Assembly (NCBI RefSeq): GCF_007833215.1
Contig: NZ_CP042239.1
Span: forward strand, 3,718,001-3,782,000
From: Sphingomonas suaedae
GTDB taxonomy: Bacteria; Pseudomonadota; Alphaproteobacteria; Sphingomonadales; Sphingomonadaceae
Direction: 5' to 3'
Length of the DNA: 64,000 nt
Shown: positions 5,622-51,579 of the stretch, piece after piece
Layout of the letters: every line of letters starts with the position of its first letter
Position numbering within the stretch: position 1 is the first letter of the stretch
Made by a program: the position numbers and the translations under genes
Notes under the pieces: model-generated
Told to the model about the DNA's origin: nothing
Seen by the model: only the letters and a program-made list of their open reading frames with translations
The model's database searches: none

Positions 5622-5622
5622 C

Positions 5623-6425: not shown

Positions 6426-6434
6426 AGCAAGCAG

Positions 6435-10772: not shown

Positions 10773-10803
10773 GTGCGGTTCTGTTCAGCGCGCGCTTAAC
10801 CGT

Positions 10804-10885: not shown

Positions 10886-10893
10886 CACTCAAA

Positions 10894-11724: not shown

Positions 11725-11735
11725 GGAAATGGCCC

Positions 11736-12743: not shown

Positions 12744-13538
12744 ATGGATATCGCCTCATTAATCGTCGATCCGGCCGCCTGGGCCGCCCTCGTCACCCTG
12801 ATCGTGATGGAGGTGGTGCTCGGGATCGACAATCTGATCTTCATCTCGATCCTGACGAACAAGCTGCCCGAGCACCAGCAGCAAAAGGCACGCCGAATCG
12901 GCATCGGCCTGGCGCTGGTCATGCGAATCATTCTGCTCTCGATGATCTTTGTCATCGTCTCGCTGACGACTCCGGTATTCGATCTGGGCATTCAGGGCGC
13001 GACCGGTCCGCATGGCGAACCCAGTTTCGAAACCGCATTTTCGTGGCGCGACCTGATCCTGATCGCTGGCGGCCTGTTCCTGCTGTGGAAGGCGACCAAG
13101 GAAATCCACCACACGATCGATCCGGTGCCGACCGATCATGCCGTGCTCGATAAGAAACAGGTCGCGACGATGAATTTCGGATCGGCGATCTTTCAGATCA
13201 TCCTGCTCGACATGGTGTTCTCGGTCGATTCGATCCTGACCGCGGTGGGCATGACCGACGAGATCGCGATCATGTTCGTCGCGGTGATCGTGACCGTGGG
13301 GATCATGCTGGTCGCCGCCGATCCGCTGGCGAACTTCATCAAGCGCAACCCCACCGTCGTGATGCTCGCGCTCGGCTTCCTGCTGATGATCGGCGCGGTG
13401 CTGATCGCCGACGGGTTCGGGGTGCATGTTCCCAAGGGCTATATCTACGCGGCGATGGCCTTCTCGGCGACGGTCGAGATGCTGAACATGGCGGCCCGCC
13501 GCCGGGCGGAGAAGAAGGCCGCCGCCACCGGCGAATGA
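12744..13538 (+). CDS. TerC family integral membrane protein
   Basis: 264-residue membrane protein with seven or so helices. Two TerC signatures with membrane-embedded acids are present: [15 protein letters not shown] in helix 2 and [17 protein letters not shown] in the central part. Family members are linked to manganese export or metallation of secreted enzymes and to tellurite resistance. The frame is open far upstream, but the ATG at 12744 begins the conserved domain and the upstream part is the mirror of the cold-shock gene. No accessory tellurite genes are nearby, so a metal-homeostasis role is more likely. Confidence 0.92.
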
Positions 13539-36382: not shown

Positions 36383-36392
36383 GTCATTTCCC

Positions 36393-37508
36393 TCAGATCG
36401 GTTCCGCGACGACCTGGAACATCTCGTGGGTCGCCTTGGCATTATCGACCGGTGGGCCCTTGCCGATCTGGCCCATGCAGATCGCCAGGCTGGAGCGGAC
36501 GATATAGGCGCAGCGGTCGAAGCGGCGGTTGCGATAAGCGGTCAGCGCGGTCTCGACATTGTCGTGCTGCGTCAGTTCCTCGGCCAGCACCAGGCTGTCC
36601 TCGATCGCCATTCCCGCGCCCTGACCCAGATGCGGGGTGGTGGCGTGCACGGCGTCGCCGAGCAGCGCGATCCGCCCGCGATGCCAGTCCCCCTCGGCCA
36701 GCATTCCTTCGAGCGGGCGATAGACCACGCCATCGTCATCGGTGACCAGTGCCGACAGCTCGCGGATATAGGGCGCGCAATTCGCCATCTTCGACCGCAT
36801 CACCGCGGCCAATCCTTCGCGTGGATAACGCGGATTGTCGGGCTCGGGCGTCGTCACATAGATGTACATGAGATCTTCGGAGATGGGCACCAGCCCAACC
36901 CCGGTCGGCCCGTTATAGGCTTGCAGCGCGTCGAGATCGGCCGGGCGCGGCAGGTTGTAGCGCCACACGGCCTGTCCGGTGAACTGCGGCCCGGGGAGCT
37001 CCGGGAACAGCATCGCACGCGTCTGAGAATAGACGCCGTCCGCACCGATCACGAGGTCGAAACGCGCGCTCTCGCCATTGGACAGGGTAACATCGACGCC
37101 GTCGCCATCATCGTTCAGCTGTGTCGCGGTCACACCCAGCAGCACCTTGGCCCCGCTGGCGATCGTGCGGTCGCCCAGAATCTTGTGCAGCGCCGGGCGG
37201 GCAATCCCCATATTCGCCGGATAGCCATCGACCAGTCGCGGGGTCGGCACGCGCGCGACCTTCTGCCCGGTGGGCGTGAAAATCTCGACCGCGTCAAAGC
37301 CGACGCCGGACGCGACATATTCGTCGATCAGCCCAAGCTGCGCCATTGCGCGGATCACGTTCGACTGCTGGATGATGCCGACGCCATAGACCGACCAGTC
37401 GGGATCGCGCTCGATCACCGTGACGGTAAAGCCCTTGGCGCGCAGCGCGATGGCGGCGGTCAGGCCGCCAATGCCGCCGCCGATGACGAGAATAGTGCCG
37501 GAATTCAT
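36393..37508 (-). CDS. FAD-dependent aromatic monooxygenase (PHBH fold)
   Basis: 371-residue flavoprotein hydroxylase. The FAD motif VIGGGIGGLTAAIALRAKGF is at the N terminus, the DG motif in FDLVIGADGVYSQTR at about 160, and the GD motif in IALLGDAVHATTPHLGQGAG at about 285. It would insert oxygen into a phenolic ring using NAD(P)H, preparing a catechol or hydroquinone for the facing extradiol enzyme. It resembles salicylate and 3-hydroxybenzoate hydroxylases in length and motifs. Confidence 0.9.
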   Translation of the reverse strand: MNSGTILVIGGGIGGLTAAIALRAKGFTVTVIERDPDWSVYGVGIIQQSNVIRAMAQLGLIDEYVASGVGFDAVEIFTPTGQKVARVPTPRLVDGYPANMGIARPALHKILGDRTIASGAKVLLGVTATQLNDDGDGVDVTLSNGESARFDLVIGADGVYSQTRAMLFPELPGPQFTGQAVWRYNLPRPADLDALQAYNGPTGVGLVPISEDLMYIYVTTPEPDNPRYPREGLAAVMRSKMANCAPYIRELSALVTDDDGVVYRPLEGMLAEGDWHRGRIALLGDAVHATTPHLGQGAGMAIEDSLVLAEELTQHDNVETALTAYRNRRFDRCAYIVRSSLAICMGQIGKGPPVDNAKATHEMFQVVAEPI

Positions 37509-37518
37509 GTCTGCTCTC

Positions 37519-38490
37519 TCAGAAACGGTCGAGATCGTTGGCGAGGGTGATCGGCCCGGCAAAGCGCGCGCGGACCTGGGCGATATAGCCCTGGGTGCGG
37601 ACCGGATCGGGCGTTCCGCCCGCAAAGTGGGTGATGACCACCGCCTTCACCCCGGCGCGCGCGGCAAGGTCGCCGACCGCTTCGGGGGTGAGGTGATGGG
37701 TCGACAGATGCTGTTCCAGCTTCTGCTTGGCCGGGGCCGGCATGTTCGGCGAATTGCGCGCGACCGCCGCCATCGTCGCGGCCATGTCGATCATCTCGCT
37801 GACCAGCAGGTCCGCGCCCTTGGCAAGCCTCTCGACCGCCGCGCTCGGCCCCGTGTCGCCGGTATAAACGATCGACCGGCCGGGCAGGTCGAACCGCAGC
37901 GACAGCGACTTGTAGTTGCGATCCTCGACGCTGCCGGGTGCGAAATCATAGTGCGTGTTCTGCGCGGCGGTGACGGTCATGCCGTCCACCACCATCTTGT
38001 CGCCATCGGTCAGCTCGATGACGGTCACCGTATCGGCGGGCGGCGCCCAGGGCTGACCCGGAATGCCATAGCCGACCTTCGCCGCCGGCTGCATCGACGC
38101 GACCATGCCCGCGACCAGCTCCCGCGTGCCCGGTGGTCCATAGACGGTGATCTTCTCCGCCACATTGGTCTGGTTGCGCAGCCCCAGCACCGCCGACAGG
38201 CCGCCGGTATGGTCGGTGTGGAGGTGGCTCAGGAACACCGCGTGCACGCGGGGCAGCTGGTATCCTGCCCGGGTCAGCTGCTGGACCGCGCCGTCGCCGG
38301 CATCGACCAGATAGACGCGCCCGTCATGCACCAGCGCATTGGCGGGCTGCGACCGGTCGCGGCTCGCCACCGGTCCGCCCATTGTGCCCAGCGTGATGAA
38401 CGCGTCGCCCTGGGGCGGTACTTGCTGAGCGGTGGCGGGCGATGCCGCGAGTGCCGCCGCAGCCGCCAGCCCCAGAAGCGACGCGCGCAT
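37519..38490 (-). CDS. Exported metallo-beta-lactamase-fold hydrolase
   Basis: 323 residues with a clear signal peptide (LLGLAAAAALAASPATAQ), so it works in the periplasm. The metal site is complete: HLHTDHTGG, His in NTHYDFAPG, Asp in VYTGDTGPS and His in VITHFAGG, in the RNase Z/arylsulfatase-like branch. Its ATG overlaps the stop of the upstream TonB receptor (ATGA). This coupling suggests that a compound is taken in through the receptor and then hydrolysed (ester, lactone or sulfate) before inner-membrane import. Confidence 0.88.
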   Translation of the reverse strand: MRASLLGLAAAAALAASPATAQQVPPQGDAFITLGTMGGPVASRDRSQPANALVHDGRVYLVDAGDGAVQQLTRAGYQLPRVHAVFLSHLHTDHTGGLSAVLGLRNQTNVAEKITVYGPPGTRELVAGMVASMQPAAKVGYGIPGQPWAPPADTVTVIELTDGDKMVVDGMTVTAAQNTHYDFAPGSVEDRNYKSLSLRFDLPGRSIVYTGDTGPSAAVERLAKGADLLVSEMIDMAATMAAVARNSPNMPAPAKQKLEQHLSTHHLTPEAVGDLAARAGVKAVVITHFAGGTPDPVRTQGYIAQVRARFAGPITLANDLDRF

Positions 38491-40811
38491 CAGAAGTCGA
38501 ACCCGACGCGGACGCCATAGGTGCGCGGCGGGCGTAGCGTGCCGACCGGGAAGTCGAGGATCGGTCGGGTGCCGGCACGCGCCAGCACTTCCTCATCGGT
38601 GATGTTGTTGACGAAGCCGGTGATGCTCCACCCCTGCCGACTGCGCAGCGTGACAAAGGCGTCGGCCATCACGAACCCGTCCTGCACCTCTTCGGGGCGG
38701 TAGTTGGAGTTCATGAACCGGCTGCTCTCGATATTCGCCCGCGCACCCGCGATGAAATCGAGGTCGCCGGTCAGTTCGAACGTCCGCTCGTATCCGACAT
38801 TGATCGCCCATTCGGGCGAGTTGACCGTCGGCTTGCCCGAACAGTCGATGTCGTAGAAGCGGGCATTATTGACCCCCGGATTGGCCGCGCGGCTGCCCAA
38901 TGTGGTGCAGCCCGTGGTCACCGGTGCTCCGGTAGGCGAGAAATTCGCCGTGAGCAGGGTGTCGTACTCGCCCTTGAGATACTGGACATTGAGGTTGAAC
39001 AGGTCGTTGCGGCTGGGTGCGAAGCGCGCCTCGAACTCGGCGCCATAGATGTGCGACTTGCCCGCATTGACGGTGATCGACCCTTGCGCGAACAACCCGT
39101 TGCCGGTCGGCACGCCGCCGACATAGGTGATCTGCTGGTCCTTATAATCCCAATAGAACGCCTCGAAATTCAGCTGGAGCTTGTTGTCGAAGAACCGGTT
39201 CTTGGCACCAACCGTGTAAGCCGTCAGCGATTCGGGGGCGAAGGTGTTGTTCGGTGGCTGGGCGACGAAGAAACCGCCCGATTTGAAGCCGGTCGCGACG
39301 TTCGCATAGACCAGCGATGCCGGACCCGCGTCGAACTCCACGCCAGCCTTCCAGGTGAACTTCTCAAAGCTCAGGCTACCGGTGAACGGGGCGCTGAGCG
39401 GCGGCTCGACCGGGCCGGGAAGGCCGCCCGCTGCGGTCGAGGTCAGCTGCTTCTTGTCCTCGCGCGTGTAACGACCGCCGGCCACCAGACGGAAGGTGTC
39501 GCTGAGATCGAAGGTCAACTGGCCGAATGCGGCGACGCTCTCGGTATTGAGGCGCGGGGTGAAGCGGGTGGTCGAGATGTTACCCTGGCGGAAATAGTTC
39601 TCCGTCGCCTGATTTTCGCCGAAATAGAAACCGCCGATGACGTAACGCAGCCGCCCGTCCTCGTTCGACGCCAGCCGCACCTCGACCGAGGTCTGCTCGG
39701 CGAGATCGGTGATATCGCCCGCAAAGCCCGGCAGATAGGTGCGGAACTTCACGTCCGACCGACGCCAGGCAGGGATCACGGTCAGCGTACCGAAGCCGAG
39801 ATCGCCGACCACGGTCGCGCTGACGCCATAGAATTGATTGTCGAGAAAGCCGTCGGTGCCAGCCAGCGCAACGCAGCCGCTGGTGACGAAGCCGCCCGCG
39901 CCACCGCAAAAGGGCGGCGCGAAGATTGTCGAGGCGAGCTGACGGATCGCGGCATGTGCGCGCGGATCGGATACGCTGACGCGGTCCTCCAGCGCGGGAA
40001 CGCTGTAGCGTGCCTCGGGCAACAGGACGGCGCCGCCCCCCTTGCCATGCTGGTTGTAGTAGTCGGCGACCAGGGTCATCGACCAGCGGTCCGACGGCTC
40101 GATCAGCAACGACGCGCGGACTGCTTCACCCTTGTCGTCGTCATAGCCATCGGAGATATAGCCGTCGCGATCGACGATCTGGCCCGCGACGCGCAGCGCG
40201 ACTGTGTCACCCAGCGGCACGTTCAGCGCCAGGAAACCCTTCTTGCTGTCGTAATTGCCATATTCCAGCAGCGCTTCGCCGCCGAACTTGCCGAGGATCG
40301 GTTTCTTGGGCAGCACGTTGATCGCGCCGCCGGTGGCGTTGCGGCCATAGAGCGTGCCCTGCGGCCCCTTGACCACTTCGACGCGCTCCAGGTCATAAAA
40401 GACGCCGGCGGGCGCGGTCGGGCGGCCGACATAGACGCCGTTGAAGTTGAAGGCGACGGCGTTTTCCGAGAAGGAGTTTTGCGAGTTGGTGCCGACCCCG
40501 CGCAGGAAGAAGCTGGTCGTGCCGCCGGTCGGCTGGACCACCAGCGAGGGGACCAGCTTGCCGAGATTGGCGGTTTCGGTGATGCCCGACTGGGCAAGGT
40601 CGTCGCCGGTGACGGCGGTCACGGCAACTGCGGCGCGCTGGAGCGATTCCGAACGGCGCTGCGCGGTGATGACGATGTCCTGAAGCCCGTCGGTCTCCTC
40701 GCCCGCCTGAGTCTGAGTCGACGTCTCGGGCGTTTCAGGCGCTTCCTGCGCCATCGCGGCGGAAGCATGGGCGACGAGGATCGCAGTCCCCGCAAGAAGC
40801 AATTTTTTCAT
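38490..40811 (-). CDS. TonB-dependent receptor heading the aromatic operon
   Basis: 773-residue outer-membrane receptor. A signal peptide (KKLLLAGTAILVAHASAAMA) is followed by a TonB-box-like IVITAQRR segment, a plug (TANLGKLVPSLVVQPTGGTT, VEVVKGPQGTLYGRNATGGA) and a 22-strand barrel that ends in an aromatic residue (RVGFDF). It is of the iron-complex class, but its neighbours are catabolic enzymes rather than siderophore genes, and in Sphingobium such receptors are known to import lignin-derived aromatics. It is divergent from a LysR gene with an operator between them. Confidence 0.9.
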   Translation of the reverse strand: MKKLLLAGTAILVAHASAAMAQEAPETPETSTQTQAGEETDGLQDIVITAQRRSESLQRAAVAVTAVTGDDLAQSGITETANLGKLVPSLVVQPTGGTTSFFLRGVGTNSQNSFSENAVAFNFNGVYVGRPTAPAGVFYDLERVEVVKGPQGTLYGRNATGGAINVLPKKPILGKFGGEALLEYGNYDSKKGFLALNVPLGDTVALRVAGQIVDRDGYISDGYDDDKGEAVRASLLIEPSDRWSMTLVADYYNQHGKGGGAVLLPEARYSVPALEDRVSVSDPRAHAAIRQLASTIFAPPFCGGAGGFVTSGCVALAGTDGFLDNQFYGVSATVVGDLGFGTLTVIPAWRRSDVKFRTYLPGFAGDITDLAEQTSVEVRLASNEDGRLRYVIGGFYFGENQATENYFRQGNISTTRFTPRLNTESVAAFGQLTFDLSDTFRLVAGGRYTREDKKQLTSTAAGGLPGPVEPPLSAPFTGSLSFEKFTWKAGVEFDAGPASLVYANVATGFKSGGFFVAQPPNNTFAPESLTAYTVGAKNRFFDNKLQLNFEAFYWDYKDQQITYVGGVPTGNGLFAQGSITVNAGKSHIYGAEFEARFAPSRNDLFNLNVQYLKGEYDTLLTANFSPTGAPVTTGCTTLGSRAANPGVNNARFYDIDCSGKPTVNSPEWAINVGYERTFELTGDLDFIAGARANIESSRFMNSNYRPEEVQDGFVMADAFVTLRSRQGWSITGFVNNITDEEVLARAGTRPILDFPVGTLRPPRTYGVRVGFDF

Positions 40812-40888
40812 CAGACAACCCTCCCATGGGCGCCGCTTCGGTGAGCGCGCCTCGTCATTGAGGATGGTCAAAGCCGATCATTTATCAT

Positions 40889-40908
40889 AACGATTTGTTT
40901 CTATCGTT
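40889..40908. promoter_or_regulatory. Candidate LysR operator between receptor and regulator genes
   Basis: AACGAT and ATCGTT half-sites, exact complements separated by eight bases, lie 21 bp before the LysR start and 78 bp before the receptor start. Position and dyad fit the binding site of the adjacent LysR protein. Confidence 0.6.
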
Positions 40909-40929
40909 TAGCACAAATGGAATTGATGG

Positions 40930-41850
40930 ATGCGGCTCGATCAATTCGATCTCAACCTGTTGATCGCGTTCGATGTTCTGATCGAGGAGCGCAGCGTCAC
41001 CCGCGCCGCCCAGCGGCTGAATCTCACCCAATCGGCGATGAGCGCGGCTTTAAAGCGGCTGCGTGAGTCGTTTTCGGACGAGATTCTGGTGCAGCATGGC
41101 AAGCGTATGGTACCCACCGCCGCCGCGCTTTCGTTGGCCCCTGACGTCTCCGCCGCGCTGCTCAATATGCGTGCTATCCTCGCGAGCGGGATGCGGTTCG
41201 ACCCGGCCCATTCCCAGCGAAGGTTCCGCGTGGTCGCGTCGGATTACATCACCACCGTGCTGCTCGGCCCGGCATTGCGGCTGCTGCACAAGGAAGCGCC
41301 GCACATTCAGATCGAGATCACCCTGCCGCGCTCGGACATTCTCGAAATGCTCGACGATGGCGAGATCGACCTGCTGATCTCGCCCGAACAGTTTCTCAGC
41401 CCCGATCATCCGCGCGAATTGCTGTTTGAGGAACGGCATGTCGTCGTCGGCTGTGCGACGAACCCGGCGATGCAGCGCCCGTTGGATGCCAAAACCTATT
41501 TCGCGAGCGGACATGTCGCGACCAGCGTCTCACGTGACGGGACATTCATCGACAATTTCCTGCGCGGGCAGGGGGAGCAGCGCCGGGTCGAAGTCGTCTG
41601 TGCCGCTTTTTCGCAAGTTCCCTGGGTCCTGCCCGGCACGACAAGGCTGGCACTGATGCACGAGCGGCTGGCCCGCGAACTCGCGCCGCCGCTCGGCCTC
41701 GTCATCCAGGAGCCACCCTTTCCGCTCCCCCTGATGCGGGAGATGATGCAGTTTCACAGCGCACGCGCCATGGACCGGGGACTGTCCTGGTTCTGCGAGC
41801 GGTTGAAGATGGCGACAAAGAGCAATTTTCGGGCTGGCCGGGCTAAGTGA
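40930..41850 (+). CDS. LysR family regulator (NodD/LinR branch)
   Basis: 306 residues. The HTH occupies about 1-62 (FDLNLLIAFDVLIEERSVTR, QRLNLTQSAMSAALKRLRES), followed by a co-inducer domain beginning near residue 93 (RRFRVVASDYITTVLLGP). It is similar in architecture to the LysR protein at 28986, and the two genes bracket the aromatic cassette. Divergence from the receptor operon and the dyad in between point to control of that operon. Confidence 0.92.
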   Translation: MRLDQFDLNLLIAFDVLIEERSVTRAAQRLNLTQSAMSAALKRLRESFSDEILVQHGKRMVPTAAALSLAPDVSAALLNMRAILASGMRFDPAHSQRRFRVVASDYITTVLLGPALRLLHKEAPHIQIEITLPRSDILEMLDDGEIDLLISPEQFLSPDHPRELLFEERHVVVGCATNPAMQRPLDAKTYFASGHVATSVSRDGTFIDNFLRGQGEQRRVEVVCAAFSQVPWVLPGTTRLALMHERLARELAPPLGLVIQEPPFPLPLMREMMQFHSARAMDRGLSWFCERLKMATKSNFRAGRAK

Positions 41851-41909
41851 CGGGCGGATAGATACCGGGCGAATAGATGCCTGACGAATAGATGCCTGAC
41901 GAATAGATG
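41849..41909. repeat. 15-bp tandem repeat downstream of the LysR gene
   Basis: Four tandem units of 15-16 bp, the last two identical (CCTGACGAATAGATG at 41880-41894 and 41895-41909), the first two degenerate (CCGGGCGAATAGATG). The array fills most of the gap before the RiPP operon. It may have arisen by slippage; no role is evident. Confidence 0.85.
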
Positions 41910-41944
41910 TTTGTCGCGACACGGTTCGCGTTTAAGCACGCGGG

Positions 41945-42862
41945 ATGAACGCTGCCCCGGAAAACTACAAGCTATTCGGCTTGCGAATGTCTAGCGATAT
42001 CCAGTTGCCTGGGCTTTCGTCCGACCGAGAGGACATACCGGCCGACGTTGAAATCCGCCATGGGCCGGTTCCCGTCGACGGCGCGGCGATAGGGCCGAAG
42101 GTGGGGCCGTTCTGCCACGCGGCCGAACATGCGCTCTGGCTTCATGTTCCTGGCGTTGCCCGGTACCTGATCCGCGACGGACGGGAGTTGACCTATGCGC
42201 CGGAAACGGGCGCCGACGAGGGGAGCGTGCGGGTCTTCATGCTCGGCAGCTGCATCGGCGCCCTGTTGTTGCAGCGCCAACAGATGGTGCTGCACGGCAA
42301 TGCGTTCGAGGTCGGGGACCGATGCGTGATCTGCGTCGGTTCTTCGGGCGCAGGCAAGTCCACGCTGGCGGCGCGGATGCTGCAACGGGGCCACCGGATC
42401 ATTGCCGACGATGTGTGTGCCATCGATCCACAGGGCCGCGCCGTGCCGGGTATGCCGCGCTTGAAACTCTGGCAGGAGACTGCGCGCCGGTTGGGGATCG
42501 ACATTGCGGGATTGCAACGCATTCGCCCCAGCATCGCCAAGTTCGACCTGCCGATCGGCGACGCATTCCGGACCGACCCGGCGTCGATCGCGGCAATCTA
42601 TATATTGAAGCCCTGGAATCGCGATCACTTTGCGATCGATGAGATCAAGGGAATCGAGAAGTTCCAGGCATTGCGCGCCAACAGCTATCGCTACCGCTTC
42701 CTGAAGGGCATGGATCTGGGGCCGTGGCATTTGCAGCAATGCAGCGCATTGGCCGGGACCGTTCCCCTGGCCCAGATATCCCGGCCGCGCGTCGGGTTCG
42801 ATATCGATGGACTCGCGGACTTCATCCTCACCGATCTGTCGGGCCGTGGGGGAGCGGGATGA
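41945..42862 (+). CDS. HPr-kinase-like peptide kinase of a RiPP operon
   Basis: 305-residue protein with an HPrK-type kinase domain. The Walker A motif GSSGAGKSTLAARML lies at about 133-147, preceded by MVLHGNAFEV and followed by RIIADDVCAI with the catalytic acids. It lacks the N-terminal domain of true HPr kinase/phosphorylase. Kinases of this branch next to lasso-peptide genes (ThcoK, PadeK type) phosphorylate the C-terminal serine of the precursor. Here the precursor encoded at 45905 ends in Ser. The stop overlaps the sulfotransferase start (ATGA). It heads a five-gene operon. Confidence 0.85.
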   Translation: MNAAPENYKLFGLRMSSDIQLPGLSSDREDIPADVEIRHGPVPVDGAAIGPKVGPFCHAAEHALWLHVPGVARYLIRDGRELTYAPETGADEGSVRVFMLGSCIGALLLQRQQMVLHGNAFEVGDRCVICVGSSGAGKSTLAARMLQRGHRIIADDVCAIDPQGRAVPGMPRLKLWQETARRLGIDIAGLQRIRPSIAKFDLPIGDAFRTDPASIAAIYILKPWNRDHFAIDEIKGIEKFQALRANSYRYRFLKGMDLGPWHLQQCSALAGTVPLAQISRPRVGFDIDGLADFILTDLSGRGGAG

Positions 42863-43728
42863 CGGCACGGTTGTTCTGGCTCGCTTCCTATCCCAAATCG
42901 GGCAACACCTGGTTCCGCGCCTTCATTCGCAATCTGAATGGTGAAGCCGACGCTCCCGCGTCGATCAACGATCTAAGCAGCACCGGCATCGCGAGTTCGC
43001 GCGCCTGGATGGACGAGATGCTCGGGTTCGACACCGCCGACCTGGACCGTGATGAAATCGCACGGCTGCGTCCCGCTGTTTACGGCTTTACGTCGGCGCA
43101 GTTGCGCACATTCAGCTATCACAAGATTCACGATGCCTGCCATCGGGTGGATGACGACCAGTGGATCGTCAATGCCGACGCGACGGCCGGGGCGCTCTAT
43201 CTGATCCGCAATCCGCTCGACGTTGCAATCTCCTACGCCCATCATGACGATTGCTCGATCGACGAGTCCATCGCGAAGATGGAGGATCCCGACCATCACA
43301 TGGCGCCCCATGACAGTGAAAAACCGAAGCCGCAGATCGAGCAGCGAATGCTGACCTGGTCCGACCATGTGCGCAGCTGGGTCGATAATCCCGACATCCG
43401 AACCCATGTGCTTCGCTACGAGGACATGAAGACGGATACGCACCGGGTCTTTTCGCTGGCGGCCCGTTTCCTGAACCTGTCGACCGATCCCGAGGCGATT
43501 GCGAGGGCGCTTGAATTCTCGACCTTCGAACGCCTGAGGGCGCAGGAGGACGAGGAGCCGTTCCGCGAGCGAAATCCGCGAAGTTCTCGCTTTTTTCGCA
43601 AAGGCTTGGTCGGCGATTGGCAAACAACGCTGACCCGTGCACAGATTGACCGGATCGTCGCCGCGCACGGCGCGGTGATGGAGCGTTTTGGCTATCTCGA
43701 CCAAACGGGATCGCCGAGAACCATGTGA
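42859..43728 (+). CDS. PAPS-dependent sulfotransferase of the RiPP operon
   Basis: 289-residue sulfotransferase (PF00685 type). The 5'-phosphosulfate loop ASYPKSGNTWFRAF is at about 9-22 and the 3'-phosphate motif LIRNPLDVAISYAH at about 114-127; the C-terminal FRKGLVGDWQTTLT matches the RKGxxGDWK element. All cofactor contacts seem intact. It is translationally coupled to the kinase and followed by the PqqD-like gene after 13 bp. A peptide substrate is inferred from context: sulfation of a Tyr, Ser or Thr in the precursor (which has YY near its end) is the obvious possibility. Confidence 0.87.
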   Translation: MTARLFWLASYPKSGNTWFRAFIRNLNGEADAPASINDLSSTGIASSRAWMDEMLGFDTADLDRDEIARLRPAVYGFTSAQLRTFSYHKIHDACHRVDDDQWIVNADATAGALYLIRNPLDVAISYAHHDDCSIDESIAKMEDPDHHMAPHDSEKPKPQIEQRMLTWSDHVRSWVDNPDIRTHVLRYEDMKTDTHRVFSLAARFLNLSTDPEAIARALEFSTFERLRAQEDEEPFRERNPRSSRFFRKGLVGDWQTTLTRAQIDRIVAAHGAVMERFGYLDQTGSPRTM

Positions 43729-43741
43729 GGGGCAAGACGGC

Positions 43742-44023
43742 GTGTTGAGGACGGATACGATATTGCGGCGCAGGCCGAGACTGTTGGCATCGATGATGGA
43801 TGGCGAAACGGTGATGCTCGATGTGGAAAGCGGCCATTATTTCGGACTTTCCGGTATCGGCCCGCACATCTGGACCATGCTCGAACAGGATCGCAGCGTC
43901 GGGGAGATCATCGCGGACGTCAAAGCCGAGTTTGCGATCGGCGCCGGTGACATGGTTGACCAGGATGTCACGCATTTTGTCCAGGAGCTGGTCGACAAGG
44001 GACTGGTGACGATCGTCGGTTAG
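43742..44023 (+). CDS. PqqD-like RiPP recognition element (lasso B1 type)
   Basis: 93-residue winged-helix protein of the PqqD family: ASMMDGETVMLDVESGHYFG, then GPHIWTMLEQDRSVGEIIAD and VTHFVQELVDKGLVTIV. These proteins bind the leader of RiPP precursors through the YxxPxL region. The GTG at 43742 follows GAGGGG. It is separate from any leader peptidase (B2) domain, and no such gene is found next to it. Three bases separate it from the asparagine-synthetase-like gene. Confidence 0.88.
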   Translation: MLRTDTILRRRPRLLASMMDGETVMLDVESGHYFGLSGIGPHIWTMLEQDRSVGEIIADVKAEFAIGAGDMVDQDVTHFVQELVDKGLVTIVG

Positions 44024-44026
44024 GCC

Positions 44027-45901
44027 ATGTTCGCGGGGATCATCATGCGCGACAGCCGCGCCGACCCGCGGGACCATGCGGGGGCGGAGACGCTGCTGGC
44101 GGCGCTCACGCCCTACGACCAGGCCGACCGGACGGGCGCGTGGCAGAGCGATGGAGCGCTGCTGGTGCAGGCGCTGACCTGGAACACCCCGGAATCGAAG
44201 CATGAAACCGTACCGGAAGTTTGTGCCGACACCGGGCGCGTAATCGTCGGCTGGATCCGGCTGGACAATCGCGCGGAACTTTGCGTGCAGCTGGGCCTGG
44301 AACTTCGCGCAGATCTGACCGATCCGCAACTCGTGCTTGCCGCGCACCGGGCCTGGGGCGAGGTTTGCCCCGATCGAATCGAGGGGGATTTCAGCTTTCT
44401 GATTTACGACCCCGCCCGGCACACCGCCTTTTGCGCGCGCGACGCGCTGGGGGTCAGACCCTTTTTCTATCATCTCAGTCGCGAGCTGTTCGTTTTCGCG
44501 AGTACGGCGGCGGTTTATCCCGTGTTACGCCGTTTCGACGCCGCACCGTCGCGGGAATGGATGGCGCGCTTCCTGATCGGCGAGTCCGCGGACGGGATGA
44601 ACACCGCTTATGCGCAGGTCAAAAAATTGCCTCCCGCGCACATCCTTTCGGTAGCCCGTGAAGGCGCTGCGGAACCCGTGCGATATTTCGGGTTCGAGGA
44701 CAGCGCGCCCCAGATCTGGCGGCGCGATGCACGCCGGGTCGACGCCTATCGCGACGCCTTTCACCGCGCCGTCGAGGCCCGGCTTCGCAGCGCATGGCGG
44801 ATCGGCGCGGAGAATTCCGGCGGCATCGACAGTGCGACGATCATCGCCCATGCGGTTGGCCAGTTGCCCGGTGGGGGTGCGAATCTGCCGTGCTTCAGCC
44901 TGTGTCACATGGAGCGGGAACCGGGCTATATCCTTGATCTCGCCATGCACTGCGGCATCAAGGACAACTATGTCCTGGCCCGCCCGGCGTACCAGCCTGA
45001 AACCGAGATATATGAACGGGCGAACCGTGTTCTCGGCTACCCGCCCGAGCATAATCATGCCCTGCTTCATGTGCCGTTCTTCGAACGGTGTCAGGCGGCC
45101 GGCATCCGAACCTTGCTGTCCGGATTTGGCGGCGATGAGATTGTGACGAGCCAGGCGGAATTTCTGACTCGCGAACTCTTTCTCGCCGGTCGATATGCGC
45201 AGCTCCTCAACGAATTGCCCGGCAATATGGCGACGCGCGCTGCCCGTGCCGTCGCGATGTTCGGCACGGGCTTGCCGAAGACGCGGAGAACCGTGCCGGG
45301 GGGCGGCACGCCCAGGCTTGCCCGGACCATCCTGCGTCGCGAGGTCATCGAAGACTATGGCCTGACCGGTCATCATGAAGCCAATGTGGCGGCCTATCGT
45401 CAGGCGCGCACGCTCAACGGCCATCTCCTGGCGAAGCCCGCGATCCGGACGGCGCTGATCGGACGGCTTGAGGGCTGCAGTCTGATGGCGGGGAGCTATC
45501 GGATCGACTATCGCTGGCCGATGCTCGATCGTGCGTTGATCGCCCGGTTTCTCGCCACGCCATCCATCGAAAAGCGCCACCGGCAATGGGGCCGATATCT
45601 CCACCGTCGCGCCTGTAACGGTACCGTTCCGGATCAAATCCTGTGGAAGGAGCGCAAAGAAATGGGGCGTATCCGCTACTTCGGGCGCGACAGGCGACTC
45701 CCTGCGATCGATGTCGATGCGATCCCCGCTGCGCTGGACGACATCGTCGATCGCGGTGCCGTTCTGGCACAAGTTGAAATGTTGAACTCTATATTCGACG
45801 ACGGCGATCTATGGTTAGCTAAGGCACCGGAAAGAAACAATTTGCGTGCGTTGACCACTCTGGATATCTGGTTGAACAACCACTGGCATAGGGGAATCTA
45901 A
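44027..45901 (+). CDS. Asparagine-synthetase-like enzyme, lasso cyclase (C protein) type
   Basis: 624 residues: an N-terminal glutaminase-like domain (1 to about 215) and an ATP-PPase domain with the pyrophosphate loop ENSGGIDSATIIAHA at about 262-276 and FGGDEIVTS further on. The catalytic Cys of amidotransferases (normally Met-Cys) is replaced: the protein begins MFAGI, so glutamine cannot be hydrolysed in the usual way. This is typical of lasso-peptide cyclases, which adenylate a side-chain acid. It lies between the recognition-element gene and the precursor gene, three bases from each. Confidence 0.88.
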   Translation: MFAGIIMRDSRADPRDHAGAETLLAALTPYDQADRTGAWQSDGALLVQALTWNTPESKHETVPEVCADTGRVIVGWIRLDNRAELCVQLGLELRADLTDPQLVLAAHRAWGEVCPDRIEGDFSFLIYDPARHTAFCARDALGVRPFFYHLSRELFVFASTAAVYPVLRRFDAAPSREWMARFLIGESADGMNTAYAQVKKLPPAHILSVAREGAAEPVRYFGFEDSAPQIWRRDARRVDAYRDAFHRAVEARLRSAWRIGAENSGGIDSATIIAHAVGQLPGGGANLPCFSLCHMEREPGYILDLAMHCGIKDNYVLARPAYQPETEIYERANRVLGYPPEHNHALLHVPFFERCQAAGIRTLLSGFGGDEIVTSQAEFLTRELFLAGRYAQLLNELPGNMATRAARAVAMFGTGLPKTRRTVPGGGTPRLARTILRREVIEDYGLTGHHEANVAAYRQARTLNGHLLAKPAIRTALIGRLEGCSLMAGSYRIDYRWPMLDRALIARFLATPSIEKRHRQWGRYLHRRACNGTVPDQILWKERKEMGRIRYFGRDRRLPAIDVDAIPAALDDIVDRGAVLAQVEMLNSIFDDGDLWLAKAPERNNLRALTTLDIWLNNHWHRGI

Positions 45902-45904
45902 GCG

Positions 45905-46066
45905 ATGGCGAGCGAAATCAAACTGGAAGCGGCGCAGGACGCTATTCGGGACACCAAGCCGAACTATCAGCGCCCGCTGCTGATCGAACTGGATGCGAAA
46001 GAGACTGCGGGTGGGCAATTCATCCCCAGCCCGACGCTTGAAAATACCACCTATTATCTCAGCTGA
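45905..46066 (+). CDS. RiPP precursor peptide with lasso-type leader
   Basis: A 53-residue peptide, three bases after the cyclase gene, with AGGGGA nine bases before its ATG. The leader holds YQRPLLIELD (residues 21-30), a match to the YxxPxL...LD lasso leader, and a Thr at 34 in the penultimate-leader position (KETAGG). The presumed core begins at Gly36 or Gly37 and ends YYLS. No Asp or Glu stands at core positions 7-9, where a lasso ring would close; the only acid is Glu46. The C-terminal Ser fits the kinase and the YY pair or Thr residues could fit the sulfotransferase. Confidence 0.75.
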   Translation: MASEIKLEAAQDAIRDTKPNYQRPLLIELDAKETAGGQFIPSPTLENTTYYLS

Positions 46067-46170
46067 TGATTCGATCCGGGCGATGATCTGACCCTGCGGA
46101 CAGGAGAGCTGCGCGCAGGGGATCATATTTCATGATCGCTGCCGGGATTTGCTTGAATTCAAACGCTTTG

Positions 46171-46203
46171 CCGCCCGGTCGTGATCGACCGGGCGGTTTG
46201 CGT
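46171..46203. terminator. Rho-independent terminator between the RiPP operon and the tail-collar gene
   Basis: Stem CCGCCCGGTCG with loop TGAT and complement CGACCGGGCGG, followed by TTTGCGTT. The opposite strand continues as CAAAGCG. It lies between two convergent genes and can serve both. Confidence 0.8.
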
Positions 46204-46209
46204 TGTTCG

Positions 46210-46731
46210 TCAGTTCCGCGAGGGGAAAACGCCAAACAGTGCGATGATGAAGTTCACGGCCAGATAGGGGCTGTGCAGATCGAAAGGCTGGCTGCCGCCG
46301 GCCATTCCGATCGAGGTCGGCGCCATGGTCCGGTCGTCGGCAGGGACCGGCGCAGCGTAGATCGGAGTGCCCGGGGTCAAGGCCAGCATGTTGCCCTGCG
46401 GCGTCTGCTTGTCTGCGTTCGCCAATTCGCCATGGAAGCTGTGATTGTGGATCGGCATTTCGAGTGTCGTCAAGGTATGCGTGGGCGATCCAGCCATTTG
46501 CCCGAGCGCGACAGGGGGCAGGCCGGGTCCCGTCCCCGGATGGACCGGCGAGCGACCGCGAAGGTCCGGCAATGCGAACGTTGTCTGGCCGTTCCCGCCA
46601 TAGGTGGTGCCGAGAATCGAGAACAGCGCTGTGTTCGACGCGATCGACATTATCTGTCCGTCGCAGAACGCCCAGCCACGTGGTGCGAAATTGCCGCCGA
46701 ACATGATGATCTGGCCAATAAATGGGTCCAT
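46210..46731 (-). CDS. Phage tail-collar / MdpB-like protein
   Basis: 173-residue protein with the tail-collar fold of microcystin-dependent (Mdp) proteins: IGQIIMFGGNFAPRGWAFCD, SIASNTALFSILGTTYGGNG, FALPDLRGRSPVH and later IHNHSFHGEL and the C-terminal AVNFIIALFGVFPSRN. Stand-alone copies occur in many bacteria without any prophage; no other phage gene is present here. A GGGGAG site precedes the ATG at 46731. It faces the RiPP operon across a terminator. Its role is unknown; it may be an extracellular fibre-like protein. Confidence 0.85.
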   Translation of the reverse strand: MDPFIGQIIMFGGNFAPRGWAFCDGQIMSIASNTALFSILGTTYGGNGQTTFALPDLRGRSPVHPGTGPGLPPVALGQMAGSPTHTLTTLEMPIHNHSFHGELANADKQTPQGNMLALTPGTPIYAAPVPADDRTMAPTSIGMAGGSQPFDLHSPYLAVNFIIALFGVFPSRN

Positions 46732-47082
46732 AATCGCTCCCCTTTTGGACTTGATGTTGAAACTGAGGTCGTAACGCGCGCTGACCAGATCAGCTGAACT
46801 GCGAATCGTCTGGTTCGCGCGTTATACGGTCGCGACGAAGCAATTTTCAAATAGTTCACCACCCTTTTTTGTTAAATCGCCATAGATGGTTTGTCCCATT
46901 TTGCTGGTTGAAACATCGACCCGTCCTGGTGGCGTGGACCCTATTTCCGCTGCGCAAAAAGGCCGCGCGCGCAAGACGGCCAGTTGTCGGCACTCCCGAT
47001 CGCTCGCGCCCTCAAATTGGCTATTAACGAACAACATATGCTATAAACACAAACTGCGATTGGGACATGGAGTGTTTGGGGC
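46732..47082. other. 351-bp intergenic region with lower GC
   Basis: The stretch between the divergent tail-collar and binding-protein genes has a clearly lower GC content than its surroundings. It includes a T-run (46863-46871), GTTCGC/CGAAC-like motifs and an operator-like site at 47016-47032. A 71-codon frame on the minus strand (46822-47037) has no recognisable features and is not called. I see promoters here but no gene. Confidence 0.5.
47016..47032. promoter_or_regulatory. 17-bp regulon motif, site upstream of the first binding protein
   Basis: Reads GTTCGTTAATAGCCAAT on the minus strand, 51 bp before the binding-protein start. It fits the consensus GTTCGTYATTRGCGAAT shared by sites at 51013, 54559, 54657, 56910 and 63415. 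Confidence 0.5.
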
Positions 47083-48108
47083 ATGGCGATTGTGGACCCG
47101 CGACCGAATTTGTGGACACGAAGGGCGCTGACAGGTGCGGCACTCGCCACGGGGGCAACGCTTGCCACTGGCTGCGCGTCGCGACCAGTGGCTCCGCATG
47201 GTGTCGCGAGCGGTCCTCTTCGGATTGCCGCACGGCCCGATGTGCTCGAAGTCGGTCCGATCCTTCATGCGGCCGGGGCGATGGGCGCGGGACGGGTCGT
47301 CGTTTCCGGCGGAGGTGTGCCGAATTTGATCGACGGGCCGGTCGCCGGGGCGATCGACAGCTTCCCCGGTCGCGCGGACGCGGCGGGGCAGGCGGAGACG
47401 CAGTTGCTGCGCCTGTCGGTCGCCAATCCGGACCTGCGCATCGTCATGACGGTGACCGAGGGCGTCTATCGCATCGTCGCGCGGCGCTCAGCCGGGATCA
47501 CCCGCGTCGCCGATCTGGCGGGCAAGCGCGTCGGTATTTTCGAACGGACGTCCGCCGCATTCTTCCTGCACCGAATGCTCGATCATGTGGGCCTGGGCGA
47601 CGCCGATATCGTCCGCGTCGCGCTGCGCCCCGGGGACATGGCGAAGGCGATGATCGAGCAACGCGTGGATGCGATCGCGATCTGGGAGCCGGAAAGCGAG
47701 CGGGCGGTTCGCGCGCTTGGCGCAGATGCCGTCACCTTCGCCGATCCGGACGTGTATCGCGAGTTCTACAATCTCAACACCACCGCCGCCGCGCTGGCGG
47801 ACCCGGTGCGTCGCGCCGCGCTGGTCGCGTTGATGCGCGCGCTCGTCCTGTCATGCCGGATCAGCGCGGAGCGCCCTGGCGAGGTGTGGCCGCTGGTCGC
47901 TGCCAGCAGCGGGTTTCCCGCAGAGCTGGTCGCGGCGGGCTGGCCGCACCACCGTTTTCCCGCGACGCTCGCTCCGGCCCTGCTCGATACGATGGTGGCG
48001 GAGGAGCGCTGGCTGGCGGCTCAGGACGGGCGCGCACCGCGCACCCGTCCCGAACTGGATCGCCTGATCGATCGCACGCTCCTCGCCGAGGCGGGGATCA
48101 GAAGCTGA
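47083..48108 (+). CDS. ABC-type substrate-binding lipoprotein without permease (SsuA/NMT1-like), copy 1
   Basis: 341 residues. A twin-arginine signal (LWTRRALTGAALATGATLATGC) ends in a Cys that could be lipidated. The mature part is an NMT1/SsuA-type periplasmic-binding fold: VVSGGGVPNLIDGPVAG, RIVMTVTEGVYRIVARRSAG, DLAGKRVGIF and AIAIWEPESERAV. No ATPase or permease gene is near. It meets a large TonB receptor tail to tail (11-bp overlap). A second copy at 55830 has the same partner arrangement, so these proteins probably work with TonB receptors, perhaps in taking sulfonated or aromatic compounds; the ligand is unknown. Confidence 0.85.
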   Translation: MAIVDPRPNLWTRRALTGAALATGATLATGCASRPVAPHGVASGPLRIAARPDVLEVGPILHAAGAMGAGRVVVSGGGVPNLIDGPVAGAIDSFPGRADAAGQAETQLLRLSVANPDLRIVMTVTEGVYRIVARRSAGITRVADLAGKRVGIFERTSAAFFLHRMLDHVGLGDADIVRVALRPGDMAKAMIEQRVDAIAIWEPESERAVRALGADAVTFADPDVYREFYNLNTTAAALADPVRRAALVALMRALVLSCRISAERPGEVWPLVAASSGFPAELVAAGWPHHRFPATLAPALLDTMVAEERWLAAQDGRAPRTRPELDRLIDRTLLAEAGIRS

Positions 48109-50920
48109 ACCGCGCGCCCACGGTCATGAACCGCCCGACGCGATCGTAGAAGACCGATGAGGCATAGCTGGGCGCGGTAATCGCGTTCGGCGTCAGCGGC
48201 GGTTTCTGGTTCAGAAGATTGTCGATGCTGCCGAAGATCTGGACGTTGGGGGTGATGCGATAGGAGGCGTTCAAATCGACATAGGCGCGTGCCGGAACGT
48301 CATTGTCGTCGATATCGACGCCTTCCTCGAAGCTGACGTTGAGCAAGCCGCCGCCGACATAACGCACCGCGACGCCAACCGATGCGCGATCGTCGCGATA
48401 AGTGGTGGAGAGGATGCCGCGCCATTTCGGGATGCCGCCCGCCGGACCGATCGTGCCGGTGGTACCGGTCTGGCCCGCATAGTCGGTCGTCTCGCCGTTC
48501 ACGGTGATCGACAGTTCCTCCACATAATTGACCAGCGCGCGTGTTTCGAGCCGCCCCCCGCCAACGGGCATCGAATAGCTGGCCTCGATATCCACACCGC
48601 TGCTCTTGGCACCCGCGGCGTTGATCAGCGTCGCCTCGACCGCTTCGATGACATTGCCGTTGAAGGTGATCGCTGAGCAAAGATCGGCCTGGTCGCGGAT
48701 GAGGCAGCCATCGACGATCTGCTGGCCGGTCAGCGACGTGATCGCGTTGTTGAGATCGATCGAATAATAATCGACCGCAAGCCGCAGCCCCGGCGCCCAG
48801 GACGGCTGATAGACTGCACCCGCCGTCAGCGCCTTGGCGCGTTCGGGCGTGAGGTTGGGGTTGCCGCCGGTCAGTTGCAGCGTGTTTCGGACGAGATTGG
48901 TGTCGGGATTGGTGATGTTGTTGAAGAATTGCGACTGGCCGGAGAACAGCTCGTTGATGTTCGCCGCACGAATGTCGCGCGAATAGGTGGCGCGCAGCCG
49001 CAGATCGTCGAACGGCGTGTAGTTCGCACCGATCTTCCACGTCGTCACGCTGCCGCTGGTCGAATAGTCGGTGACGCGAACCGCGCCGTTGATGTCGAGA
49101 TGCTTGCCCAGACCGGAGTCGCGCAACAACGGGACGACCACCTCGGCAAAGGCCTCCTTGACGTCGAGCTCTCCGCTCAGCGGCTGCGGGTTGACGGTCT
49201 TCCAGCGGCGACGCACCGACACGTCGTCGACATCGGCGCGCACCGTTTCGGAGCGATATTCGGCGCCCACCGCCAGCGACACGGTACCGGCCCAGGTGTC
49301 GAACACCGACCCTTCGAGGCTGACCGCATAGACGTCCTGCCGCTGGCGGGCCATCATCACGGCCGTGCCCTTATAGTAATCGAGCGCAGCCTGGCTGATC
49401 GATCCCGCGCCGAACGGATTGATCGGGATACACGCGCGAATATTCCCATAGGGATCCTGCGCCGCCGTCGGATTGGGGTTGTTCAGCAGCGCGCGACAGA
49501 TCGGCTGGCCGGTCGCCGGGTTGATGACGCTGTCGATCCCGAGCAGCCAGCGATCCTCGTTCCGGTTGTTGCCGTCCTCGCGATAATAATCGTTGCGGCT
49601 GAGCTGGACGAAGGCGTTCCATTTCCAGCTCGCGCCGATCTTTCCATCGATGCCGAAGCCATAGCGCTGGACCGTATTGTCGACGCTGTTGGTGAACGCC
49701 CCGTCCTCGCCCGCGACGCGTCCGATGCGGAAATCGTTCAGATTGTTGGCGATCAGAATGTCGCGGATTGGGGAGGGCAGGAAGGCATTGTCGCGGCGGA
49801 TGACGAGGTTGCCATTGTCGGTCGCAGTGGTGCCGTCCGAGAAGATGTCAGCGCGCGAAACCAGCGCATCGGCATAGATGCTGATAGTGTCGCTGACATC
49901 GAAGGTGATGCGGCCATAACCCGACATGCGCTCGAGCACCGGCAGGATGTTCGAGGTCGCCGCGAGCGATGCGCCGTCGCCGCCGGACATATAGACGTTG
50001 CCCACGGTCGTGCCGTAGTTGAACGGGAGTACCGTGCCGCCCGGTCCGAACTGGATGCCGCGCAGCGCGGCGATGCTGTTGCGCGCGGTGACGCCGCTAA
50101 ACGTCATCTGCGAAAAGCGCGCGTTGGGCAGAATCAGCTGGCGCGGCGCCCCGGGCGTGCCCGGATAAGCGGGGTTGGTGAGGACGGCATAATCGCCCCG
50201 CGCCCAGGGACGGCTTTCCTGCGCGAGTTGCCCTCCATTGCGAAAATAGTCCGCAGAGGCGACGATATGGAGCCGTCCGTCGACAAAGGCGCGGCCTGCG
50301 GTCAGCGAGGCGCCGGGCGTTTCGACATCGCCATAGGTGGAGACGCCGTACTGGACATCGCCCTTGAACCCCTCAAACCGATCGTCGAGCACCACGTTGA
50401 CGACACCCGACACGGCGTCCGAACCATAGGCCGCCGACGCGCCGCCGGTGACGATGTCGATCCGGCGGATCAGGCCGACCGGAATGACGTTGATGTCCAC
50501 GCCGCCCGACGGGTCGGTTGCCGCAAAGCGCCGCCCATCGACCAGCAGCAGCGTGCGGTTGGGGCCGAGGCCGCGCAGATCGAGATTGCTGGCGCCGATC
50601 GGCTGGCTCGACGTCCCGGTGTTCTGATTGGCCTTGAGCGCGGGGATATCGGAGATCAGGTCGGCGAGGTTGCGCACGCCCTTGTCCTGCAGTTCCAGCT
50701 TGCTGACGGTGGTTACCGGGGTTGGCGCGGTGAATCCGGAGATGCGCGTGCCGGTAATGGTGATCTCGCCCGGTGCCTCAGCCTCGTTTGCCGCCTCGAC
50801 CGGTACGTCCGCTTCCTGCGCGAAAGCCGGGGTGCCGAACGCGAGCGCGACGGCCAGCGATGCTGTGGACGTCAGGCCGCTTATGGCACGACGATATGAA
50901 TTCGGACGTGGCTTGGTCAT
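48098..50920 (-). CDS. Large TonB-dependent receptor, paralogue 1
   Basis: 940-residue outer-membrane receptor. The ATG at 50920 follows GGGAGG and begins a signal peptide (ISGLTSTASLAVALAFGTPA); a longer frame to 51031 covers the operator and is rejected. The TonB-box-like EITITGTRISGFTAPTPVTT, plug motifs (ALKANQNTGTSSQPIGASN, DIVTGGASAAYGSDAVSGVV) and a C-terminal RFSF barrel end are visible. It is closely similar to the receptor at 51580 (for example NPNPTAAQDPYG in both). The class is that of sphingomonad/Caulobacter receptors for organic nutrients, not classic siderophores. Confidence 0.92.
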   Translation of the reverse strand: MTKPRPNSYRRAISGLTSTASLAVALAFGTPAFAQEADVPVEAANEAEAPGEITITGTRISGFTAPTPVTTVSKLELQDKGVRNLADLISDIPALKANQNTGTSSQPIGASNLDLRGLGPNRTLLLVDGRRFAATDPSGGVDINVIPVGLIRRIDIVTGGASAAYGSDAVSGVVNVVLDDRFEGFKGDVQYGVSTYGDVETPGASLTAGRAFVDGRLHIVASADYFRNGGQLAQESRPWARGDYAVLTNPAYPGTPGAPRQLILPNARFSQMTFSGVTARNSIAALRGIQFGPGGTVLPFNYGTTVGNVYMSGGDGASLAATSNILPVLERMSGYGRITFDVSDTISIYADALVSRADIFSDGTTATDNGNLVIRRDNAFLPSPIRDILIANNLNDFRIGRVAGEDGAFTNSVDNTVQRYGFGIDGKIGASWKWNAFVQLSRNDYYREDGNNRNEDRWLLGIDSVINPATGQPICRALLNNPNPTAAQDPYGNIRACIPINPFGAGSISQAALDYYKGTAVMMARQRQDVYAVSLEGSVFDTWAGTVSLAVGAEYRSETVRADVDDVSVRRRWKTVNPQPLSGELDVKEAFAEVVVPLLRDSGLGKHLDINGAVRVTDYSTSGSVTTWKIGANYTPFDDLRLRATYSRDIRAANINELFSGQSQFFNNITNPDTNLVRNTLQLTGGNPNLTPERAKALTAGAVYQPSWAPGLRLAVDYYSIDLNNAITSLTGQQIVDGCLIRDQADLCSAITFNGNVIEAVEATLINAAGAKSSGVDIEASYSMPVGGGRLETRALVNYVEELSITVNGETTDYAGQTGTTGTIGPAGGIPKWRGILSTTYRDDRASVGVAVRYVGGGLLNVSFEEGVDIDDNDVPARAYVDLNASYRITPNVQIFGSIDNLLNQKPPLTPNAITAPSYASSVFYDRVGRFMTVGARFSF

Positions 50921-51012
50921 GGTTCCTCCCCTCAATCGGCTTTCGCCGCTGGCGCACGTTTTCTTGTCGAAACGCTTCTGATGCGCGATGCTATTAGCTA
51001 TCAACAAACTAT

Positions 51013-51029
51013 ATTCGCCAATAGCGAAC
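51013..51029. promoter_or_regulatory. 17-bp regulon motif upstream of receptor 1
   Basis: GTTCGCTATTGGCGAAT on the minus strand: TTCGC and GCGAA half-sites around five bases form a perfect dyad. It lies 93 bp before the receptor start and 71 bp before the YkgJ gene on the other strand. Confidence 0.6.
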
Positions 51030-51099
51030 AATCTAATGCCGATTGTGAGGGCTATGGATAGCGAGCGGGCATGGATGCGCGCGGGACCGGAGCAAGAGG

Positions 51100-51573
51100 A
51101 TGACCGACGAAAAGCCCGATCAGAATGCGATCCCCTGCGGCGGGTGCACCGAATGCTGCAAGACCGACCAGGTGATCCTGCGGCCCGAGGCCGGGGACGA
51201 TCTGGAATTCTACGATCTCGAATATATTGAAAGCGCGCTGTATCCGGGGCAGCGGGTACCGGCGCTCAAGCGCGATTCCCGTACCGGTCATTGCGTGTAT
51301 CTGCGCGACAGCGGTTGCGCGATCCATGGCCGCGCACCCTGGACCTGCCGGCGGTTTCACTGCGCGCGCATGTTCAAGGCGCTTGGCAGACTCTCCCGTG
51401 CGAAGCGGGACATTCTGTGGGCGCGCGGGGATGTGCTGGAGGAAGCGATCGTCGAGCGCGGGCGGGATCGATACGGCTACGCCGTCGAGCATGGGCTCGA
51501 CGGCGTGCTGGATACCGACATGCAGGTCGCGGCGTTCGAGCGCATCATTGCCGCGACGCCACGACGCAGATGA
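51100..51573 (+). CDS. YkgJ family cysteine-cluster protein
   Basis: 157-residue cytoplasmic protein of the YkgJ type (zinc/iron-chelating CxxCxxCC cluster). The signature is at the N terminus: IPCGGCTECCKTDQVILRPE, with more Cys in GHCVYLRDSGCAIHGRAPWTC and RRFHCARMF. The function is not known; family members may bind Fe-S clusters or zinc. It starts with ATG at 51100 after GGAG. It lies between two TonB receptor genes that point leftward and shares the control region of receptor 1. Confidence 0.88.
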   Translation: MTDEKPDQNAIPCGGCTECCKTDQVILRPEAGDDLEFYDLEYIESALYPGQRVPALKRDSRTGHCVYLRDSGCAIHGRAPWTCRRFHCARMFKALGRLSRAKRDILWARGDVLEEAIVERGRDRYGYAVEHGLDGVLDTDMQVAAFERIIAATPRRR

Positions 51574-51579
51574 CGCGGG

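Follow-up and report, generated by a model that had tools for sequence, protein, structure and literature searches.

What does a peptide operon make when it pairs a kinase with a sulfotransferase, and how is the leader removed when the operon has no leader peptidase gene? Both questions are raised by five intact plus-strand genes at positions 41945-46066 of a 64,000-nucleotide stretch of the Sphingomonas suaedae genome (the window; positions 3718001-3782000 of NZ_CP042239.1, the single contig of a 4.15 Mb genome). As read from the open reading frames (ORFs) of the window, the genes encode, in order, an HPr-kinase-like protein (K), a 3'-phosphoadenosine-5'-phosphosulfate (PAPS)-type sulfotransferase (ST), a PqqD-like recognition element (B1), an asparagine-synthetase-like macrolactam cyclase (C) and a small precursor peptide (A). 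The operon is a real and conserved lasso-like cluster for a ribosomally synthesized and post-translationally modified peptide (RiPP). In the reading that we favour, with a probability of roughly 60%, the product would be a lasso-type peptide tailored twice, with phosphate and with sulfate, and its leader would be cut in trans by a peptidase of the B2 type.

A preliminary description had proposed a five-gene operon with tiny overlaps or gaps and had named the gene products as above, and both points were borne out. K and ST overlap by 4 bp (42859-42862), and the gaps that follow are 13, 3 and 3 bp, the first assuming that B1 starts at the GTG at 43742. K matched PF07475 (2e-10) and HprK models, and has a P-loop (GSSGAGKS). 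In an alignment of 31 members G137, K138 and D155 were invariant, and HprK structures were the best PDB match of the corresponding profile. The sole PADLOC hit, of K to mads_8 (1e-4), was weak, concerned the P-loop and was taken as generic. ST matched PF00685 (9.7e-26) and contains YPKSGNTW and RKGLVGDW, which we take to be the 5'-PSB loop and the C-terminal GDW motif of that family; its best PDB sequence matches were Teg12 and Teg14, then animal phenol and oestrogen sulfotransferases, with StaL weaker. B1 matched PqqD (PF05402, 6e-16), with the lasso element TbiB1 as its best PDB match. C has the SGGxDS motif (as SGGIDS), and its position 2 is not Cys. The lack of a glutaminase Cys, pointed out in the preliminary description, is thus real, but we dropped it as a special feature: only 16/125 C proteins encoded beside such kinases carry CG[ILVMF] close to the N terminus.

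The precursor A has 53 residues and gave no match in family-model searches. Residues 21-26 (YQRPLL) form a leader motif of the YxxPxL type, and the predicted core is GQFIPSPTLENTTYYLS (G37-S53), with Tyr50, Tyr51 and a C-terminal Ser53. Small ORFs related to A lie directly behind C in six related operons, and in an alignment of seven related precursors K18, Y21, P24, D30, T34 and G37 were invariant.

We then examined the distribution of the operon. ST homologues (E ≤ 1e-15) were found at 31 places in 25/298 genomes of the family and in 22/151 genomes of the genus, with K beside ST at 31/31 of the family loci. For named genomes we used the best 80 of at least 581 ST loci. Strong matches to K and ST occur together at 64 of these 80, including loci from Methylobacter, Zetaproteobacteria, Acidobacteria, Chloroflexi, Bacteroidales, a cyanobacterium and others; at the other 16, a strong K match was not seen, so ST relatives also occur in other settings or on cut contigs. 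Four plasmid records also carry ST relatives (34-41% identity). Wherever strong matches to both were present (122/122 loci), K lies ≤300 bp from ST.

The nearest operon found (L303, in genome G537) comes from another family of the same class; in the search that gave it, gene context was read in 3/84 genomes with matches. It has the order K-ST-B1-C-A, again without B2, and is identical to the window at 70.5% (K), 77.5% (ST), 71.0% (B1) and 73.6% (C) of positions, with 44% over 50 residues for the precursor. An operon from the same genus as the window (L239) gave 58% (K), 63% (ST) and 60% (C). Because L303 is closer to the window than L239 is, these identities suggest that the operon may have moved between bacterial families. 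Since the same order recurs in another family, the five-gene set is more than a chance arrangement. A gene order not conserved in relatives, which the preliminary description had named as a result that would speak against it, was not what we found, and the small ORF, whose translation it had also made a condition, is conserved. Its assignment as a RiPP operon of the lasso type, with K and ST as tailoring enzymes, is supported.

To look at the C termini, we chose candidate precursors that have the leader motif at a suitable spacing together with an acidic residue, with Ser playing no part in the selection; the filter misses some candidates, e.g. at L011, L059, L073 and L075. A C-terminal Ser was present in 97/113 candidates compared with 6/24 control ORFs that pass the filter outside the clusters. 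In related lasso systems it is the C-terminal Ser that the kinase phosphorylates (PMC8498205, PMC9266682). A Tyr within the last 8 residues was found at 36/68 loci with ST (ST+) but at only 1/17 loci without it (ST-), the latter being a selection among the kinase matches listed (60 regions were requested, and some listed kinases were left out). After collapse at 50% kinase identity the values were 19/36 versus 1/14 groups (p = 0.0035), and at 40% identity 8/12 versus 1/9 groups (p = 0.024). In a count with missed precursors added by hand, Tyr was found at 30/51 ST+ versus 1/17 ST- loci. Phe and Thr did not differ between ST+ and ST- loci in the same kind of comparison.

There is no B2 gene (PF13471) at the operon, and the 3-bp gap between B1 and C rules out one hidden inside it. 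In five relatives (L042, L044, L045, L046 and L239) B2 lies between B1 and C, so the gene probably disappeared in the lineage of the window and L303. A genome-wide search found three PF13471 genes elsewhere: two beside their own C in other clusters (L008, L009) and one stand-alone gene (L007), ~136 kb from the window operon, with the Cys, His and Trp positions conserved. The absence of a leader peptidase claimed in the preliminary description therefore holds for the operon but not for the genome. That account had also set an ordinary product with a known peptidase elsewhere against its own proposal, and the peptidase half of this, a B2-family gene elsewhere in the genome, is what we found. In three clusters of this genome (window, L010, L011) K, B1 and C are present but B2 is not; a tentative fourth (L071), with K and a C carrying SAGLDS and with B1 and precursor unrecognised, was not counted.

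Among the family ST loci, B2 was present within the stretch read at 18/31 and absent at 13/31, four of the latter (L056, L062, L063, L068) having one ~10-21 kb away. For loci with K, ST, B1 and C 60/98 have B2 in the stretch, although many of the stretches are cut off by a contig end. All of the other family ST genomes (24/24) and of the genus ST genomes checked (19/19) have one or more PF13471 genes. Three genomes of the genus contain a relative of the L007 B2 (55-57% identity); at L240 and L242 it lies near a weak K/B1/C-like cluster and two tail-collar genes, and at L241 lasso genes were not seen within 18.5 kb. One of these three genomes, G406 (loci L240, L243-L246, L259-L265), has 12 lasso-type kinases (E ≤ 1e-25) but only two PF13471 genes, one of them beside C (L265); eight strong and three weaker kinase clusters there had no B2 in the stretch read. 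Because a B2-family peptidase is present elsewhere in the genome, the lack of one at the operon suggests sharing rather than a new route, and B2 is probably supplied in trans.

From the genes and their distribution we infer the following chemical steps, in this order, leading to a threaded product. B1 would bind the YxxPxL leader of A. K would phosphorylate the C-terminal Ser53, acting before folding as in the published case of paeninodin, and ST would sulfate Tyr50 and/or Tyr51. The stand-alone B2-type cysteine peptidase (L007), recruited through B1, would remove the leader, and C would link Glu46 to the N terminus thus freed, most likely Gly37.

A number of observations weigh against this scheme. 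The best NCBIfam model for B1, lasso_PqqD_Bac, scored 64.7 bits against a cut-off of 80, and the lasso cyclase model NF033535 scored 268 bits on C against a cut-off of 525. At 32/68 ST+ loci the last 8 residues lack Tyr, as does the precursor of L044 from the window's own clade; ST may thus use Ser/Thr or another target, and strict Tyr specificity was dropped because of the 32 loci. The related kinase BsfK phosphorylates Ser3 rather than the C terminus (PMC10368454). With only 33-34% identity to its counterparts in L042 and L239, the L007 B2 is not simply a relocated operon copy; identity to the B2 of L304 and L305 is 38-40%. A PDB search with the L007 B2 alone gave no match, and one with the B2 alignment gave a single irrelevant match (E 0.32). 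Finally, Glu46 is the sole acidic residue of the core and lies at position 10 from Gly37 or 11 from Gly36 (the usual Thr(-2) rule), reaching 9 only if Gln38 is residue 1; in known lasso rings the acid is at 7-9 (PMC11006600).

The position of Glu46 fits a product that is not a threaded lasso, i.e. a linear polyphosphorylated peptide or a branched ring with an unusual macrolactam of 10-11 residues. Linear polyphosphorylated RiPPs made with HprK and a RiPP recognition element (RRE) are known in Bacillota (PMC13381572). Of the alternatives this one survives best, but we consider it doubtful: the operon encodes a cyclase whose SGGxDS motif is intact and which is conserved along with the other genes, whereas the Bacillota linear clusters have none, as far as the available text goes. 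Moreover, counted from the same invariant Gly, the acid of same-clade relatives falls at 7 or 8 (8 in L303 and L042, 7 in L239). In the precursors of L010, L057, L065, L066 and L067 the ring acid is also at 10 by the Thr(-2) rule, and placing Thr at -3 instead gives 9. This leaves a shifted cleavage site or, in some cases, a larger ring.

It is unlikely, in our estimate, that an unrelated host protease cuts the leader or that cyclisation needs no dedicated peptidase, with the L007 B2 serving other clusters only. The distance of this B2 from those of the nearest operons is consistent with such a route. The title of Zyubko et al. 2019 states that the lasso peptide pseudomycoidin forms without the leader and the leader peptidase, and in a Bacillota system it is a signal-peptidase-like enzyme that works together with an RRE (PMC13381572). 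The PF13471 gene in each ST genome checked and the retention of B1 in operons without B2 argue against it.

A tail-collar gene lies convergent to the operon, and its product also matches phage tail PHROGs. Copies beside the L303, L042 and L239 operons are 72%, 68% and 63% (120 aa) identical to that of the window, and the L303 copy is likewise convergent. ST+ and ST- loci were compared for collar genes where B1 and C are present, because both are missing at 21/49 ST- kinase loci, which makes these unlikely lasso clusters. Collar genes were then present at 31/98 loci with K, ST, B1 and C compared with 0/22 with K, B1 and C but without ST; for stretches ≥15 kb with B1 or C, the values were 30/93 ST+ versus 0/22 ST-. 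They occur at 13/31 ST+ loci of the family, at 11 of the best 80 named-genome loci (of at least 581) and, by genome, in 22/25 ST genomes versus 31/273 others of the family. The genes are single or in tandem, up to three (L010, L042, L044-L048, L052, L054, L058, L059, L061). The association spans several phyla, with none at the ST-less clusters examined. The collar genes at these loci, together with the 16 ST relatives (among the best 80 of at least 581 loci) that have no strong K match close by, would suit a further reading, in which K and/or ST act on something else, e.g. the neighbouring collar protein or a glycan, and the peptide is secondary. We nevertheless regard this as improbable, since K stays ≤300 bp from ST wherever both occur and the Ser and Tyr patterns at the precursor C termini track K and ST. 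That the operon is a decaying, productless remnant left after loss of the B2 that five relatives have is very improbable, given five intact frames, the catalytic motifs kept and the same B2-less set conserved in another family.

Table 1. Operon genes and adjoining downstream features, in window coordinates
Feature	Position	Strand	Basis and remarks
K, HPr-kinase-like	41945..42862	+	PF07475, HprK models, P-loop; putative Ser kinase of the precursor C terminus
ST, PAPS-type sulfotransferase	42859..43728	+	PF00685, motifs; predicted target Tyr or another hydroxyl near the C terminus
B1, PqqD-like RiPP recognition element	43742..44023	+	PF05402; longer ORF from TTG 43688 possible
C, asparagine-synthetase-like macrolactam cyclase	44027..45901	+	NF033535; SGGIDS intact; without N-terminal glutaminase Cys
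A, 53-residue precursor	45905..46066	+	ORF and alignment of related precursors
GC-rich hairpin, perfect 11-bp, possible terminator	46171..46196	.	Read by eye; between the convergent operon and collar gene
Tail-collar (PF07484) protein	46210..46731	-	PF07484, 6.1e-30; convergent to the operon

In the surroundings of the operon (Table 1), a promoter/terminator pattern scan returned sites that were no commoner than in shuffled sequence, and the hairpin at 46171-46196, which has a weak T run, was not listed by it. An Rfam scan of 36000-52000 gave no matches. Between a LysR-type gene and the operon start (41850-41945) there are short near-repeats (GAATAGATG units).

Two other clusters of the same genome differ in their contents. 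The second ST+ cluster (L010; G000:C1:662000-680000, 3171-13536) has a precursor ending SYSLS, C, a second sulfotransferase-like gene, K, ST, B1, a radical-SAM/B12-like gene (identified by eye), tailoring-like genes and three collar genes. The third kinase cluster (L011; G000:C1:1587000-1603000, 7816-11635) has neither ST nor B2, and its two tandem precursors end GVLS and GIFS, with Tyr absent near the C terminus. Elsewhere, four similar tandem precursors lie beside one ST+ cluster (L055, 2909-4796), their cores being the main difference. Aspartyl/asparaginyl-hydroxylase-like genes, some of them weak matches, adjoin K or B2 in many ST+ clusters (L056, L057, L062, L063, L065-L069; L047, L052, L059, L249, L250, L252, L258), and one lies beside the stand-alone B2 of L007. 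A possible role is further tailoring.

If the doubly tailored product is confirmed, the operon offers a testable route to a ribosomal peptide with phosphate and sulfate on one tail, and ST could be used to sulfate Tyr in designed peptides. Lasso clusters would also be able to do without a leader peptidase of their own by sharing one, and genome searches made cluster by cluster would therefore mark such operons as incomplete. The collar genes give a first handle on the function of the peptide. Speculatively, and with little confidence in the picture as a whole, the cassette might be a mobile module that crosses phyla, its doubly anionic peptide working with the tail-collar-like protein (e.g. 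bound or displayed), with one peptidase shared by many clusters and a 10-residue ring in the window.

The two gene types are not new to lasso clusters. The preliminary description knew of no described lasso system that combines phosphorylation and sulfation, but HPr kinase and sulfotransferase genes were noted in some lasso clusters of Gram-positive anaerobes in 2014, with their role unclear (PMC4289311), and a sulfotransferase gene starts some Firmicutes lasso clusters (PMC8498205). A table of halotolerance-associated genes from relatives of Pontixanthobacter lists B2, sulfotransferases, aspartyl hydroxylase, PqqD and asparagine synthase together, along with a tail fiber protein and a 2OG oxygenase; in the available text the cluster goes unrecognised (PMC10040529, Table 2). 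In the main text of a review covering lasso modifications, no word starts with 'sulf' (PMC9266682), and the words kinase and sulfotransferase are both absent from a paper on a Sphingomonas lasso of the ordinary type, which has a B2 of its own (PMC11006600). Our search of the open literature, with subscription papers outside its scope, turned up neither a shared B2 nor sulfated lasso peptides, nor any mention of the collar link.

Among characterised enzymes, Teg12, Teg14 and StaL sulfate phenols on peptide scaffolds. Teg12 and Teg14 are the top PDB sequence matches of ST, and StaL is a weaker one; the substrate of these enzymes, in contrast, is a non-ribosomal glycopeptide.

The closest systems include those of paeninodin and SyanA (PadeK, ThcoK and SyanK, the last from a sphingomonad; PMC8498205, PMC9266682), which share an HprK-like kinase beside A, B1 and C and a conserved C-terminal Ser as target. 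They differ in having their own B2, whereas the window has none and its ring acid is off-position, and a sulfotransferase is not described as acting there in the available text. The mined clusters with tailoring genes of these types (PMC4289311, PMC8498205) come from Gram-positive hosts, and the portions available do not state the K-next-to-ST unit, the Tyr association, a shared B2 or collar genes. Bradymonas BsfA has separate B1 and B2, a kinase and a [YW]xxPx[L] leader, and relatives in Sphingomonadales are mentioned; however, BsfK targets Ser3, the residue at -2 is Ile and a sulfotransferase is not mentioned in the text available (PMC10368454). The linear polyphosphorylated peptides of Bacillota share an HprK kinase, a discrete RRE and a common leader motif, but their clusters, as available in part (PMC13381572), have a signal-peptidase-like leader peptidase and no macrolactam cyclase, whereas the window has C. 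Both tailoring genes were already known from lasso clusters; what is new here is the probable phosphate/sulfate tail, the leader peptidase probably acting in trans and the link to collar genes.

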